Shown here: piece by piece, positions 2,661 through 25,629 of the stretch | Position numbering within the stretch: position 1 is the stretch's first letter | How the letters are laid out: the number at the start of each line of letters is the position of its first letter | Assembly (NCBI GenBank): GCA_017433125.1 | Contig: JAFRHT010000050.1 | Span: 1-32,707, forward strand | From: Solobacterium sp. | GTDB taxonomy: Bacteria > Bacillota_I > Bacilli_A > Erysipelotrichales > Erysipelotrichaceae | Direction of reading: 5' to 3' | Length of the DNA: 32,707 bases | Notes under the pieces: generated by a model | Database searches by the model: none | What the model saw: the letters and a program-made list of their open reading frames with translations, nothing else | What the model was told of the DNA's origin: nothing | Position numbers and translations under genes: made by a program

Positions 2661-3644
2661 TTACTTAATATTCTTAATGGCTTCAGCCAGGGCACTGATC
2701 CGGCTGACTTCCTCATCATTCAGACGGATATCAAACACCCTGCATGTATCTTCCATCGTGTGCCGCCGCCGGAAGCCGGTCAGCAGGTTCAGGGCATCAT
2801 ACTGCCGCAGGGTCCACGCCTGTACCAGGTTGGCAAAGGAACAGCCATGCCCCTGACACATTTCCTCCAGGCCGGCATACATATCCTTCAGGGCCTTCCG
2901 ATACGGTTCCTGCATGTACTTCGCTTTGGCCCGCACATCATCCGGTCCGAACTGCCTGTCCAGAATACCCGGCCCGGCCAGGAACCCTTCTTCCAGCGAA
3001 CCATAGACCTGGAAGACCGCATTGTATTTCGAGCAGGTATCAAAGTATGCCCTGTTGGCATCATCCAGAAGGCTGAACTTTTCCTGCACTCCGGCCACAT
3101 ATCCGTACTGCTCATATTCATCGAGATCGGCCGGCTGGCTGTTGGAGATCAGGACAGCCCGGATCTTGCCCTCCTCTTTCAGCCGGTTCAGCTCCGCCAT
3201 GGTCTCCTGCACCGGCACTGTCCGGGAGATACGGTGAACCACCAGCGCGTCGATATGATCCGTGCCAAGCCGTTCCAGGGAGTCTTCGACATCTTTCCGG
3301 ACCGCTTCTGCCCGGTGATCCCGGTTGACCGTATACCCGTCCCGCACATACTCGAACTCGCCGCCTTCATTGCGCCAGTTCAGGCTGCACTTGGTCTGCA
3401 GGATAAAGCGGTCCCGCCGGCCCTTCAGGGCCTGGCCCAGTACGGTTTCACTGTGGCCGATGCCGTAGACCGGGGCTGTATCAATGTAGTTGATGCCCAG
3501 CTCGTAAGCGTCATCCAGCAGGTTTTCCACCATATGCACATCCACCGCCATATCCGACCAGACATTGCCGGCCCCGAGGCCCCATGCCCCGAAGGAAACC
3601 TGTGATACTTCGATGTCGGTATTACCCAGTTTCTGATATTTCAT
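2661..3644 (-). CDS. Aldo/keto reductase
   Basis: A 327-residue (alpha/beta)8 NAD(P)H-dependent oxidoreductase reducing aldehydes or ketones in the cytoplasm. The catalytic tetrad is visible: Asp55 and Tyr60 in DTAPVYG, Lys85 in LQTKCS and His137 in LVVHRIS. The cofactor end has the usual C-terminal pattern. The ATG at 3644 is preceded by GAGGAG 7 nt away; the upstream in-frame Met lacks this. It follows the iron-dependent alcohol dehydrogenase by only 19 nt, so the two reductases are probably co-transcribed and may act on related carbonyls. The physiological substrate cannot be told from sequence. Confidence 0.92.
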   Translation of the reverse strand: MKYQKLGNTDIEVSQVSFGAWGLGAGNVWSDMAVDVHMVENLLDDAYELGINYIDTAPVYGIGHSETVLGQALKGRRDRFILQTKCSLNWRNEGGEFEYVRDGYTVNRDHRAEAVRKDVEDSLERLGTDHIDALVVHRISRTVPVQETMAELNRLKEEGKIRAVLISNSQPADLDEYEQYGYVAGVQEKFSLLDDANRAYFDTCSKYNAVFQVYGSLEEGFLAGPGILDRQFGPDDVRAKAKYMQEPYRKALKDMYAGLEEMCQGHGCSFANLVQAWTLRQYDALNLLTGFRRRHTMEDTCRVFDIRLNDEEVSRISALAEAIKNIK

Positions 3645-3663
3645 ATCGTTTCTCCTCATCTGT

Positions 3664-4830
3664 TTACAGGCACATCCGCAGAATCGCCTCGGAATCCTGC
3701 GGGGACAGCGGGATCCAGGAATTGCTCAGCCGGCCCTTCCGGTCCGCATGGACTGCCATTTCGGCAAAATGTTCATCGGTAATGCCCAGTTCGCCCAGGG
3801 TCATCGGCAGGCCGGCTTCCCTGAAGAAGTTCTCCAGGGCAGCAATACCCTGTTCCGCCAGCAGCTGCTCATCCGTTCCGGCCAGACCCCATACATTACG
3901 GGCAAACCGGGCCAGCTGCGGCCGCACCCGTTCCGGATCCTTCGTCAGGATATAACGCATCCACTGCGGTGTCAGGATGGCCAGGCCGGCCCCGTGGGTA
4001 ATGTCATACCAGGCTGAGAGTTCATGCTCCAGCGCATGGCATGGCCAGCCGCTCCACTTCTTGCCGTATTCCGGAATACCCGAGCAGGCAATCGAAGATG
4101 CGCTCATCAGACTGGCCCTGGCCGCATAGTTGTCCGGTTCCTTCAGGACAACCGGCAGGCATTTGATGACGGTCTTCAGCAGCGCCTCGGCAATCGCATC
4201 AGACAGGATGCTGTCGGTGGTTTCCGCGAAGTAGCCTTCCATGACATGGCTCATGATATCGGCTGAGCCGGCTGCCGTCTGATAGGGTGATACCGTAAAT
4301 GTATATGTCGGATCGCAGATCGACACCGCCGGATATGTATAGCTGCCGCCGAATTTTTCATTGGTTTCAGGGTTGGAGATCACCCCGCCGCCGTCATACT
4401 CGGAGCCAGTCGCGCTGAGCGTCAGGATATCCACCAGCGGCAGCGCTTTCCGCCCTTCCCGGGCGGTCAATACCATCTCCCAGAAATCGTCGCCTTCATA
4501 GAAGGTCCCGACGGCAATGGCTTTGGCACAGTCAATGACACTGCCCCCGCCGGCCGCCAGAATTACATCAATATTGTTCTCCCGGCAGAGCTGCGCACCC
4601 CTGGCTACCGAGGAAATCCGCGGATTGGGTTCGATCCCGCCGCATTCCACAACGGTGAAATCCTTCAGCAGATCCATGATCTGATCATACAGTCCGGTCT
4701 TTTTAATCGATCCGCCGCCGTAGCATAACAGCACCCGCTTTCCGTAACCGGCCAGGATTTCCGGCAGATGTTTGATCTGCCCTTTCCCGAACAGAATCTT
4801 TGTCGGTATATCGTGCGTATAGTTTTCCAT
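3664..4830 (-). CDS. Iron-containing alcohol dehydrogenase (NAD(P)H-dependent)
   Basis: 388 residues, typical of the group III butanol dehydrogenase/YqhD-like family. The nucleotide-binding GGGS motif is at about residues 38-41, with a second GGGSVIDCAKAIA at 94-106. The metal ligands are all present: Asp191 and His195 (SADIMSHVME), His265 (CHALEHELS) and His279 (ITHGAG), with the usual 14-residue gap between the last two. It should interconvert aldehydes and alcohols in fermentation or detoxification. The ATG at 4830 has a GGAGGAG site close upstream. It lies between a small membrane protein gene (17 nt) and an aldo/keto reductase (19 nt), which points to one operon. Confidence 0.93.
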   Translation of the reverse strand: MENYTHDIPTKILFGKGQIKHLPEILAGYGKRVLLCYGGGSIKKTGLYDQIMDLLKDFTVVECGGIEPNPRISSVARGAQLCRENNIDVILAAGGGSVIDCAKAIAVGTFYEGDDFWEMVLTAREGRKALPLVDILTLSATGSEYDGGGVISNPETNEKFGGSYTYPAVSICDPTYTFTVSPYQTAAGSADIMSHVMEGYFAETTDSILSDAIAEALLKTVIKCLPVVLKEPDNYAARASLMSASSIACSGIPEYGKKWSGWPCHALEHELSAWYDITHGAGLAILTPQWMRYILTKDPERVRPQLARFARNVWGLAGTDEQLLAEQGIAALENFFREAGLPMTLGELGITDEHFAEMAVHADRKGRLSNSWIPLSPQDSEAILRMCL

Positions 4831-12155: not shown

Positions 12156-12325
12156 GGACCCGGGTGGGATGAGAGGTGAAAACCTCCGGTCATCCAGAAT
12201 AGGGAAACAGGTGAAAGGCCTGTACGAACTCGTCGCTGTAAGCAGTGCGGGACATGCACGATGCCATTGGGAAACCGAGAAGGCGCATGTCTGATTCCTG
12301 CGAGTCAGAAGACCTGCCCGGGATC
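12156..12325 (+). promoter_or_regulatory. Cobalamin (AdoCbl) riboswitch
   Basis: The aptamer's conserved blocks appear in order: AATAGGGAA, CAGGTGAAAGGCCTG, CGTCGCTGTAA, GATGCCATTGGGAAACC followed by GAGAAGG, and GTCAGAAGACCTGCC. The outer P1 helix pairs GGACCCGGG near 12156 with CCCGGGATCC near 12317. Downstream (12360-12395) is a long hairpin with stem GAAAACATG/CATGTTTTC. The ribosome site of the next gene can pair with the TTTTCC just before it, so control is probably translational. The two downstream genes are a DUF4430 protein and an ECF S component, consistent with corrinoid uptake shut off by sufficient B12. Confidence 0.93.
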
Positions 12326-12432
12326 CGGACGTGAACCACGAGAGCCTGGCCATCACGTACCGTCCGAAAACATGTTTTCATGTTTTCTGTACGGCCCGGC
12401 CTCATGGGTTTTCCTTCAGGAGGATAGAAAAC

Positions 12433-12858
12433 ATGGAACAAAAGAAATCTTACAAACCGCTGATTGCCCTGCTGTGCCTGCTTGTGTGCGCATGCGGGCT
12501 GTATTTCTTCTGGCAGAGCAGGAAACCGGCTGTCACGGAAGGGGCCAAGGCAATCACGATCGAAGTGCTCGACAACGAGGAAAAGACCACTTCCTATGAA
12601 CTGCATACCGATGCGGAGTATCTGAAGGGTGCCATGGATGAACTGGCAGCCAAGGACAGCACCTTCAAAGTGGAGGGCAGCGACGGGGAATACGGTTTCT
12701 TCATTGAGGCTGTCAACGGCATCACCGCTGACTTCGAAACCGACAAGGCTTACTGGGCCATTTACGTCAACGATGAATACGGACAGTATGGCGCAGACCA
12801 GCAGCCGGTCAATGACGGTGATGTCTTCCGTCTGGCTTACGAAATCTCCACGTACTGA
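12433..12858 (+). CDS. DUF4430 (transcobalamin-like C-terminal domain) surface protein
   Basis: 141 residues. A hydrophobic N-terminus (residues 9-28, LIALLCLLVCACGLYFFWQS) acts as signal anchor; VCAC could serve as an imperfect lipobox with Cys at about 21. The extracellular part has the DUF4430 pattern: ITIEVLDN at the start and YWAIYVNDEYGQYGADQQPVNDGDVFRLAYE at the end, which is similar to the C-terminal domain of animal transcobalamin. It probably binds a corrinoid and hands it to the adjacent ECF S component. An AGGAGG site precedes the ATG, within reach of riboswitch control. Cobalamin binding is inferred from domain and regulation. Confidence 0.88.
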   Translation: MEQKKSYKPLIALLCLLVCACGLYFFWQSRKPAVTEGAKAITIEVLDNEEKTTSYELHTDAEYLKGAMDELAAKDSTFKVEGSDGEYGFFIEAVNGITADFETDKAYWAIYVNDEYGQYGADQQPVNDGDVFRLAYEISTY

Positions 12859-12864
12859 TCTTTC

Positions 12865-13371
12865 ATGACGGATACCGGACGGGCGATCCGGCGGATTGTT
12901 TTCATTGCTTTTCTGACGGCAATCCTGGAAACCGCCAAATTTGCCCTGAATGCCATTGCCAATGTGGAACTGATCACCCTGCTGATCATCATCTTCACCC
13001 GCCGGTTCGGGACCCGGATGATGCTTGCGGTGTGTCTTGTTTTTACCATGCTTGAATGCATGTGGTGGGGCATCAGCATCTGGACGGTCACATACTTTTA
13101 TGTCTGGCCGATCCTGGTGCTGCTCGTGTACGTGTTCCGGAAGATGACCGCTGCTTTGTCATGGGCCATCCTGTCCGGGGCCTACGGACTTGTCTTCGGC
13201 GCCCTCTGTTCCTTTACCACCCTGGTGATTGCCGGCTTCAGCGCGGCCGTATCCTGGTGGATCGCGGGGATCCCGTATGACCTTGTCCACTGTGTCTCCA
13301 ACTTCATCATCTGCCTGTTATTGTTCCGGCCGCTTACCGCGGCCCTGGACCGCATGCCGATCCCGCTGTAA
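12865..13371 (+). CDS. ECF transporter S component, predicted corrinoid/B12-precursor (CblT-like)
   Basis: 168 residues with about six hydrophobic segments. The opening TAILETAKFALNAIANVELITLLIIIFTRRFG is the pattern I associate with the CblT-like ECF substrate-binding subunits. It would work with the shared EcfA-A'-T module, which is not in this window. It starts 6 nt after the DUF4430 stop without its own Shine-Dalgarno, so translation is probably coupled, and both are under the cobalamin riboswitch. The exact substrate (cobalamin, cobinamide or a lower-ligand precursor) is not settled by sequence. Confidence 0.82.
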   Translation: MTDTGRAIRRIVFIAFLTAILETAKFALNAIANVELITLLIIIFTRRFGTRMMLAVCLVFTMLECMWWGISIWTVTYFYVWPILVLLVYVFRKMTAALSWAILSGAYGLVFGALCSFTTLVIAGFSAAVSWWIAGIPYDLVHCVSNFIICLLLFRPLTAALDRMPIPL

Positions 13372-13404: not shown

Positions 13405-13425
13405 TTATATGGAAAAGTGATCATG

Positions 13426-13455
13426 GATACTCATGAAACTGTGAGTATCTTTTTT
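13426..13455 (+). terminator. Terminator-like hairpin in the MATE leader (attenuator or operator)
   Basis: An 8-bp perfect stem, GATACTCA/TGAGTATC, with an 8-nt loop, followed directly by six T. It lies about 15 nt below the predicted start site and 5 nt above the AAGGAG ribosome site (13461-13466). It would stop readthrough from the cobalamin operon and also act on the gene's own transcript. The same palindrome could bind a regulator. Confidence 0.7.
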
Positions 13456-24981: not shown

Positions 24982-25575
24982 TCAGTATTTCGGGGCAATC
25001 TTCTTCAGCGTATCATTATTCTTCAGACGTTTCCGGACAGCGATGTACAGCAGTGACGCAATGATCACCGCGATAACCGCGTTCGTAAAGGTTGTTATGG
25101 CGTTGAACTTGGCCAGTTTTTCCGCTGCCTGGGCCGGCGCACCGAGGATGTATGCCGTGTAGAAATAGGAGAAAATGGGTTCCCCGATGCAGTTGAACAG
25201 CATGCCCATGGCTGAGGAGATAAATACGGCTCTGGTCAGCTTCTTTCCGTCTTCCAGATGATTGATCTTGAAGATCTTGTGGGCAAACAGGCCGGTCACA
25301 ACCCCGATCATGGTCTTCAGGATAATGGTCTTCGGCGCTACGGTGATATAGAGGGGATCGAGGACATCACCGATACCCATGCCGATGGCTCCGGCAATCC
25401 CGCCGGTCAGCCCGCCCAGCATCAGCGCAGCCAGCACGGTGAATGTATTGCCTAAATGGAAAGCGGTGTATCCTCCCGGGGTAGGAATGTTGATTTTTAG
25501 ATAAGTAAATGATACATAGGCCAGCGCCGCCATGAGTGCCGTAACACTCAGCCGCAGAATACGATTGTCACGCAT
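24982..25575 (-). CDS. ECF transporter S component (COG4720-like)
   Basis: 197 residues and about six membrane segments. LAYVSFTYLKINIPTPGGYTAFHLGNTF and GIGDVLDPLYITVAPKTIILK match the ECF S-component group that includes predicted HmpT/PdxU2-like vitamin transporters. It would bind a vitamin precursor and use shared ECF ATPases encoded elsewhere. The ATG at 25575 has AAAGGGGG upstream. A MocR-type regulator is encoded directly above it, and MocR regulators often control vitamin B6 genes, so pyridoxine is a reasonable guess. A hydroxymethylpyrimidine substrate cannot be excluded. Confidence 0.82.
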   Translation of the reverse strand: MRDNRILRLSVTALMAALAYVSFTYLKINIPTPGGYTAFHLGNTFTVLAALMLGGLTGGIAGAIGMGIGDVLDPLYITVAPKTIILKTMIGVVTGLFAHKIFKINHLEDGKKLTRAVFISSAMGMLFNCIGEPIFSYFYTAYILGAPAQAAEKLAKFNAITTFTNAVIAVIIASLLYIAVRKRLKNNDTLKKIAPKY

Positions 25576-25600
25576 ATGAATTCCCCCTTTGCTGTGTGCG

Positions 25601-25629
25601 ATTACAATATAACTGTCTTCTGATGTCAA
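25601..25629 (-). promoter_or_regulatory. Promoter of the COG4720-like S component gene
   Basis: Minus strand: TTGACA (25624-25629), exactly 17 nt, TGTAAT (25601-25606). The -35 overlaps the T run of the upstream terminator. The spacer contains ACA-GTTATAT-TGT, a possible half-symmetric site. Confidence 0.8.

Follow-up and report, generated by a model that had tools for sequence, protein, structure and literature searches.

A cobalamin riboswitch-led gene pair in Solobacterium probably couples a transcobalamin-like capture protein to a CbrT-like ECF corrinoid importer

Gram-positive bacteria have no outer membrane, many of them also have no BtuFCD system, and the acquisition of corrinoids in the gut is poorly described. 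A two-gene locus from Solobacterium sp. (assembly GCA_017433125.1, contig JAFRHT010000050.1) raises the question of what a surface protein resembling half of an animal vitamin B12 carrier does beside a membrane transport subunit and behind a cobalamin riboswitch. The stretch of DNA analysed, referred to here as the window, covers 32,707 nucleotides of this contig, and the features of the locus are collected in Table 1. The results suggest that the operon is probably a B12-repressed corrinoid import system, in which an anchored DUF4430 protein is the capture subunit serving a CbrT-like ECF importer. The host, a rumen gut bacterium, thus appears to catch B12 outside the cell with a protein that has the fold of one half of transcobalamin.

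Table 1. Coordinates of the features of the riboswitch-led gene pair within the window.
Feature	Position	Strand	Basis
Cobalamin riboswitch aptamer, RF00174	12145..12335	+	cmscan
Shine-Dalgarno sequence AGGAGG of the DUF4430 gene	12418..12423	+	Sequence; computed pairing probability 0.42
DUF4430 gene, transcobalamin beta-domain-like, membrane anchor, 141 aa	12433..12858	+	PF14478, model, fold
N-terminal anchor helix, residues 8-29	12454..12519	+	Model; preceded by Lys, hydrophobic (sequence)
Transcobalamin beta-type domain, residues about 37-139	12541..12849	+	Alignment to haptocorrin, transcobalamin and intrinsic factor beta domains
CbrT-like ECF S component, 168 aa	12865..13371	+	phmmer to 6fnp_A; S-component fold
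Terminator-like hairpin	13425..13450	+	11-pair stem and T run; ahead of MATE gene

The riboswitch was recovered over the complete model (positions 1–189) and scored 93.9 bits (gathering score 31.5; E 2.4e-22). It was the single RF00174 match in the host genome, and the Rfam scan of the window returned no further family at threshold. The terminator-like hairpin that precedes the neighboring MATE gene makes the locus look like a two-gene unit. The region from aptamer to start was folded for 13 sequences (the window and 12 named loci, described below), four of which had no usable start or Shine-Dalgarno sequence. Computed pairing of the Shine-Dalgarno sequence ranged from 0.34 to 0.99 across the folded sequences, with the window at 0.42, and in some relatives terminator-like hairpins, identified by eye, were found in place of this pairing. 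The folding was thus ambiguous across relatives, and control may act at translation or at termination. Two other ECF S components are encoded on the minus strand of the window: QueT (526–1161; PF06177) and a riboflavin-type protein (24982–25629; PF07155).

The product of the first gene matched PF14478 at 45.5 bits (curated cut-off 23.8), and its structure model (pLDDT 89.0) places the domain directly after the N-terminal helix. Judged from the sequence, this anchor looks uncleaved, with no canonical lipobox. The best structure match of the model was 3u7z (Z 17.1); the beta domains of haptocorrin, transcobalamin (TC) and intrinsic factor (IF) followed with Z scores of 15.2–16.2 over 99–104 residues, and the next unrelated fold scored 7.7. 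For the TC beta chain 5no0, 103 of 105 residues were aligned (Z 15.5, rmsd 2.6). Identity to these animal domains in the structure alignments was only 12–17%; a profile built from 33 relatives reached transcobalamin-1 (E 1.2e-4), transcobalamin-2 (1.7e-3) and intrinsic factor (7.5e-3) by sequence. In fold, as modeled, DUF4430 is a beta domain of the transcobalamin type. The original prediction had described a B12 riboswitch followed by only two genes, the first encoding a signal-anchored DUF4430 protein similar to the C-terminal half of transcobalamin, and the results above bear this description out.

The window protein and the animal carriers share some 100 residues of beta fold. The chain of the animal proteins, however, also includes an alpha toroid at the N terminus, whereas the window chain has no alpha/alpha toroid and consists of the anchored beta domain alone. 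In the animal proteins the alpha domain closes the binding site; in the host genome no such domain was found (see below for the reach of this search). Isolated human TC beta has been crystallized with CNCbl and with cobinamide bound, and cobalamin is required for it to assemble with TC alpha (PMC5599065). A lone beta domain can therefore bind corrinoid, if less tightly.

The second gene product matched nothing in Pfam or NCBIfam. Against the PDB (phmmer, E≤10) its sole match was 6fnp_A (E 2.1e-12), titled 'ECF-CbrT, a cobalamin transporter' in the fold listing. The model (pLDDT 93.1) has the ECF S-component fold, with Z 12.2 to CbrT and 14.0–14.5 to the top three structures, namely 4huq_S and two folate S components. 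As modeled, the fold settles the family and the sequence indicates kinship to CbrT, while the fold does not by itself define the substrate. The prediction of an ECF S component was thus upheld, and its label 'CblT-like' gives way to CbrT-like. ECF-CbrT of L. delbrueckii carries Cbl and Cbi (PMC5997447). It belongs to the S component family of the window protein and, as is probable for the latter, uses an ECF module common to several S components. Its gene cluster, nrdJ-cbrS-cbrT-pduO, is unlike the window pair, and transport of B12 was measured in reconstituted liposomes without an outside partner (PMC5997447). An outside partner is therefore not strictly required for the L. delbrueckii S component, and the DUF4430 partner probably serves to improve capture when concentrations are very low, without being essential. 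We would guess that the cbrS product is itself a DUF4430 protein.

The host genome (96.8% complete, 142 contigs) was searched for other routes of corrinoid supply and for corrinoid consumers. Two matches to FecCD-type (BtuC-type) permeases were obtained, both below the curated cut-off, and neither CobS nor the class II ribonucleotide reductase NrdJ (TIGR02504) was found. The sole PF02310 protein (locus L117, host contig C27) is a fusion of a URO-D methyltransferase and a corrinoid-binding domain that resembles methyltransferase corrinoid proteins; as far as PF02310 shows, the genome has no MetH. This gene content suggests that finished corrinoid is imported to serve a methyltransferase; the window operon is the only corrinoid import route found in the genome. 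An EcfA-type ABC ATPase gene lies beside a CbiQ-family EcfT gene elsewhere in the genome (L158), and we infer that their products are the motor for the window S component. A separate CbiM-PDGLE-CbiQ-CbiO metal importer (L159, host contig C31) is also present in this genome without CobS; it may supply nickel or cobalt for another use.

Conservation of the pair was assessed in sets of loci of increasing breadth. A set of 24 loci in named genomes was found by the DUF4430 protein alone, and in all 24 an S component gene lies directly downstream. A riboswitch was detected just upstream of DUF4430 in half of them (L033–L042, L047 and L056), and a MetH-like gene lies in the flank retrieved for eight of the 24. 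Some pairs for which no riboswitch was found adjoin MetH (L048, L055 and, in the genus set below, L058 and L059). At L046 (371–5946) the DUF4430 and S component genes are the last two of a cobT-cobU-cobS-cbiB-cobD run, with no riboswitch detected. Among the neighbors scanned, nine loci (L043, L044, L045 and L049–L054) showed no riboswitch, MetH or cob genes of the L046 type, with the qualification that L044, L050 and L051 were scanned for the riboswitch at the gathering threshold or less only, and that the upstream sequence of L044 was limited to 163 bases. Since the locus sets overlap (e.g. L034 is L078, and L036 is L088), the named and the other sets are not independent.

Within the genus, surroundings were read for 30 of 32 DUF4430 sites, and an S component adjoins DUF4430 in 28 of the 30, the exceptions being L062 and L080. 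At L080 (1951–2439 and 2439–2879) a riboswitch and DUF4430 are followed by a gene without detectable S-component similarity; the S component there may have been replaced or may be very divergent. Twenty of the 28 genus pairs have a riboswitch, and eight have none under a permissive scan. Two of these eight have MetH in the fetched flank (L058 and L059), and another (L064) adjoins a gene for a radical-SAM protein that has a B12-binding domain. The S component frame of L064 (2399–2908) is in two pieces and apparently broken, and its DUF4430 gene is intact.

Among 100 relatives, DUF4430 occurred in 68 genomes and RF00174 in 50. DUF4430 lay within 3.5 kb downstream of the riboswitch, on the same strand, in 47 of the 50 riboswitch-bearing genomes (21 of 23 for the genus alone). 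Across the phylum, a survey of 295 genomes, some of them in common with the relatives sample, found DUF4430 in 45, RF00174 in 69 and both in 34. Linkage within 3.5 kb downstream was seen in 32 of these 34, against approximately 0.05 genomes expected by chance in a simple estimate based on length. Any RF00174 scan spanning over 40 genomes was run with stricter filters, and the riboswitch counts are therefore lower bounds. The S component adjoined DUF4430 at 47 of 60 relative loci, lay further downstream at 10 and was not nearby at three; the corresponding numbers for 40 phylum loci were 21, seven and 12, with two of the 12 also giving no DUF4430 match to our own profile. The survey of DUF4430 genes beside S components under cobalamin riboswitches, proposed with the original prediction, thus came out in its favor. 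Overall, the pair was not found mostly without the riboswitch; the named set, evenly divided, came close to such a result. The eight genus pairs and the 12 named pairs that lack a detected riboswitch weigh against the reading.

Richer forms of the system were found outside the genus. In the sister family, many operons consist of a riboswitch, a toroid gene, DUF4430 and an S component (L111, L100 and L097, for example). The products of the toroid genes show similarity, weak in some cases, to the prenyltransferase alpha/alpha toroid domain, and several look, by eye, as if they carry a sortase-type C-terminal tail. A toroid profile searched against the PDB reached squalene cyclases and MstE, not transcobalamin, so the comparison with the TC alpha domain is made by domain type and gene context. 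At L114, ECF motor genes (one for a double ABC ATPase, the other weakly similar to CbiQ) lie between DUF4430 and the S component; L112 has a double ATPase in the same place, and its other intervening gene gave no match. Other families of the class encode a protein of 385–475 aa with DUF4430 at the N terminus. In most of these loci, an additional short DUF4430 gene follows, together with an S component. A C-terminal toroid stretch was detectable in six of 11 such proteins inspected (L119, L121, L122 at 3495–4721, L126, L127 and L129); here DUF4430 comes first and the toroid after, the reverse of the order in animal transcobalamin. At least three of the fused proteins (L121, L122 and L126) have, by eye, a lipoprotein-like signal at the start. 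A further protein of 344 aa (L133, 3558–4592; genome G280) has three tandem DUF4430 domains and lies downstream of a cobalamin riboswitch. A toroid partner was sought in the host genome with PF00432 and gave no match at E≤10; PF00432 was also silent on fused proteins matched by our own toroid profile, and this absence is therefore not firm.

Compared with known systems, the window pair is like BtuFCD in that an extracytoplasmic corrinoid binder would feed an ATP-driven importer. The folds and motor of BtuFCD are unrelated to those of the pair, and the host genome differs in having no FecCD-type permease above cut-off. A bacterial transcobalamin-like clade was described in 2007 within the SLBB beta-grasp superfamily (Burroughs et al., PMC1796856). 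That paper reports secreted or anchored TC-beta-like proteins in Gram-positives, some fused to a toroid on one side or the other, with paralogs as operon partners and with genes for CbiO-like ATPases and CbiQ-like proteins nearby; B12 scavenging was proposed for the bacterial proteins, as was transfer to animals. The original prediction had known of no settled function for DUF4430 in this setting. In light of this proposal, the function was less unclaimed than stated. The window pair differs from the described clade in consisting of just a beta domain and a single CbrT-like S component; its operon has neither toroid nor motor genes. No S component is named in the portions available, and a word search of the text gave neither 'riboswitch' nor 'ECF' (PMC1796856). 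Similarly, 'DUF4430' and 'transcobalamin' were absent by word search from the available text of the 2025 ECF-CbrT paper (PMC12075633), and the accessible parts of two further papers hold no test of bacterial transcobalamin-like proteins (PMC2667541, PMC1949818). Searches on DUF4430, PF14478 and transcobalamin-like proteins found no corrinoid-binding test in bacteria, in a literature sample drawn mainly from open-access papers. What is new here is the small form of the predicted system, and the explicit link to an S component and a riboswitch.

Taken together, comparative genomics, fold and host gene content agree with the predicted pairing of an outside binder with an S component; binding and hand-over are steps that we infer. 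At low cellular cobalamin the riboswitch would allow expression of both proteins. Its N-terminal helix would anchor the DUF4430 protein in the membrane, the beta-like domain facing outside, where it could catch cobalamin or cobinamide. It would then raise the local corrinoid concentration at the CbrT-like S component, or hand the ligand over to it. The S component would dock on the common EcfA/EcfT motor, whose genes lie elsewhere in the genome, and bring the corrinoid inward, to be used by the corrinoid-dependent methyltransferase. The riboswitch and docking steps follow the known behavior of RF00174 riboswitches and ECF transporters, and those of catching and hand-over are drawn from the DUF4430 fold and the gene pairing. 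More tentatively, the S component could stand in for the missing alpha domain, with the corrinoid sandwiched between DUF4430 and the side of this component that faces outward; we consider this possible, though doubtful.

Other explanations of the pair were weighed against this capture and import role. The pair could import a corrinoid precursor, such as alpha-ribazole, in the manner of CblT, rather than whole corrinoids. The earlier CblT-like label pointed this way, as does L046, where the pair closes an operon for nucleotide-loop assembly, and precursor transporters are also under cobalamin riboswitch control. Use of alpha-ribazole, however, requires CobS, which is missing from the host genome at its high completeness, and this absence makes the role less likely. 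Furthermore, the only PDB sequence match of the S component is CbrT, and the DUF4430 fold is that of corrin binders, so that we regard precursor import as unlikely.

Roughly as improbable, if slightly less so, is that DUF4430 acts as a sensor, stabilizer or metal-binding accessory of the S component without binding corrinoid. Its solved relative 3u7z is titled a putative metal binding protein, yet the whole DUF4430 domain superposes on the beta domains of TC, IF and haptocorrin, and in relatives it is accompanied by, or fused to, an alpha/alpha toroid, the type of transcobalamin's other half. Finally, the riboswitch neighborhood could be coincidental and DUF4430 could have a general surface role, as it also occurs away from riboswitches and, at the 12 phylum loci noted above (including the two without a match to our own profile), away from S components. 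Coincidence of riboswitch and DUF4430 was rejected on the linkage counts, with nearly all phylum genomes that hold both showing them together against almost none expected, and the S component is next door in every named relative; a general surface role is thus extremely improbable.

This locus and its relatives offer a small, concrete and testable system, comprising two genes behind a B12 riboswitch. Beside one transporter family, the beta domain is found alone, fused to a toroid or accompanied by a toroid encoded separately, and the system therefore bears on the origin of the animal B12 carriers. An extracytoplasmic capture subunit is generally considered dispensable for ECF systems. If the sandwich arrangement is true, the pair would be a split transcobalamin within an ECF transporter, that is, an ECF importer with a dedicated extracytoplasmic capture subunit. 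ECF transporters are usually told from other ABC importers by their missing outside binding protein; should the DUF4430 protein prove to be a capture subunit, they would gain one.
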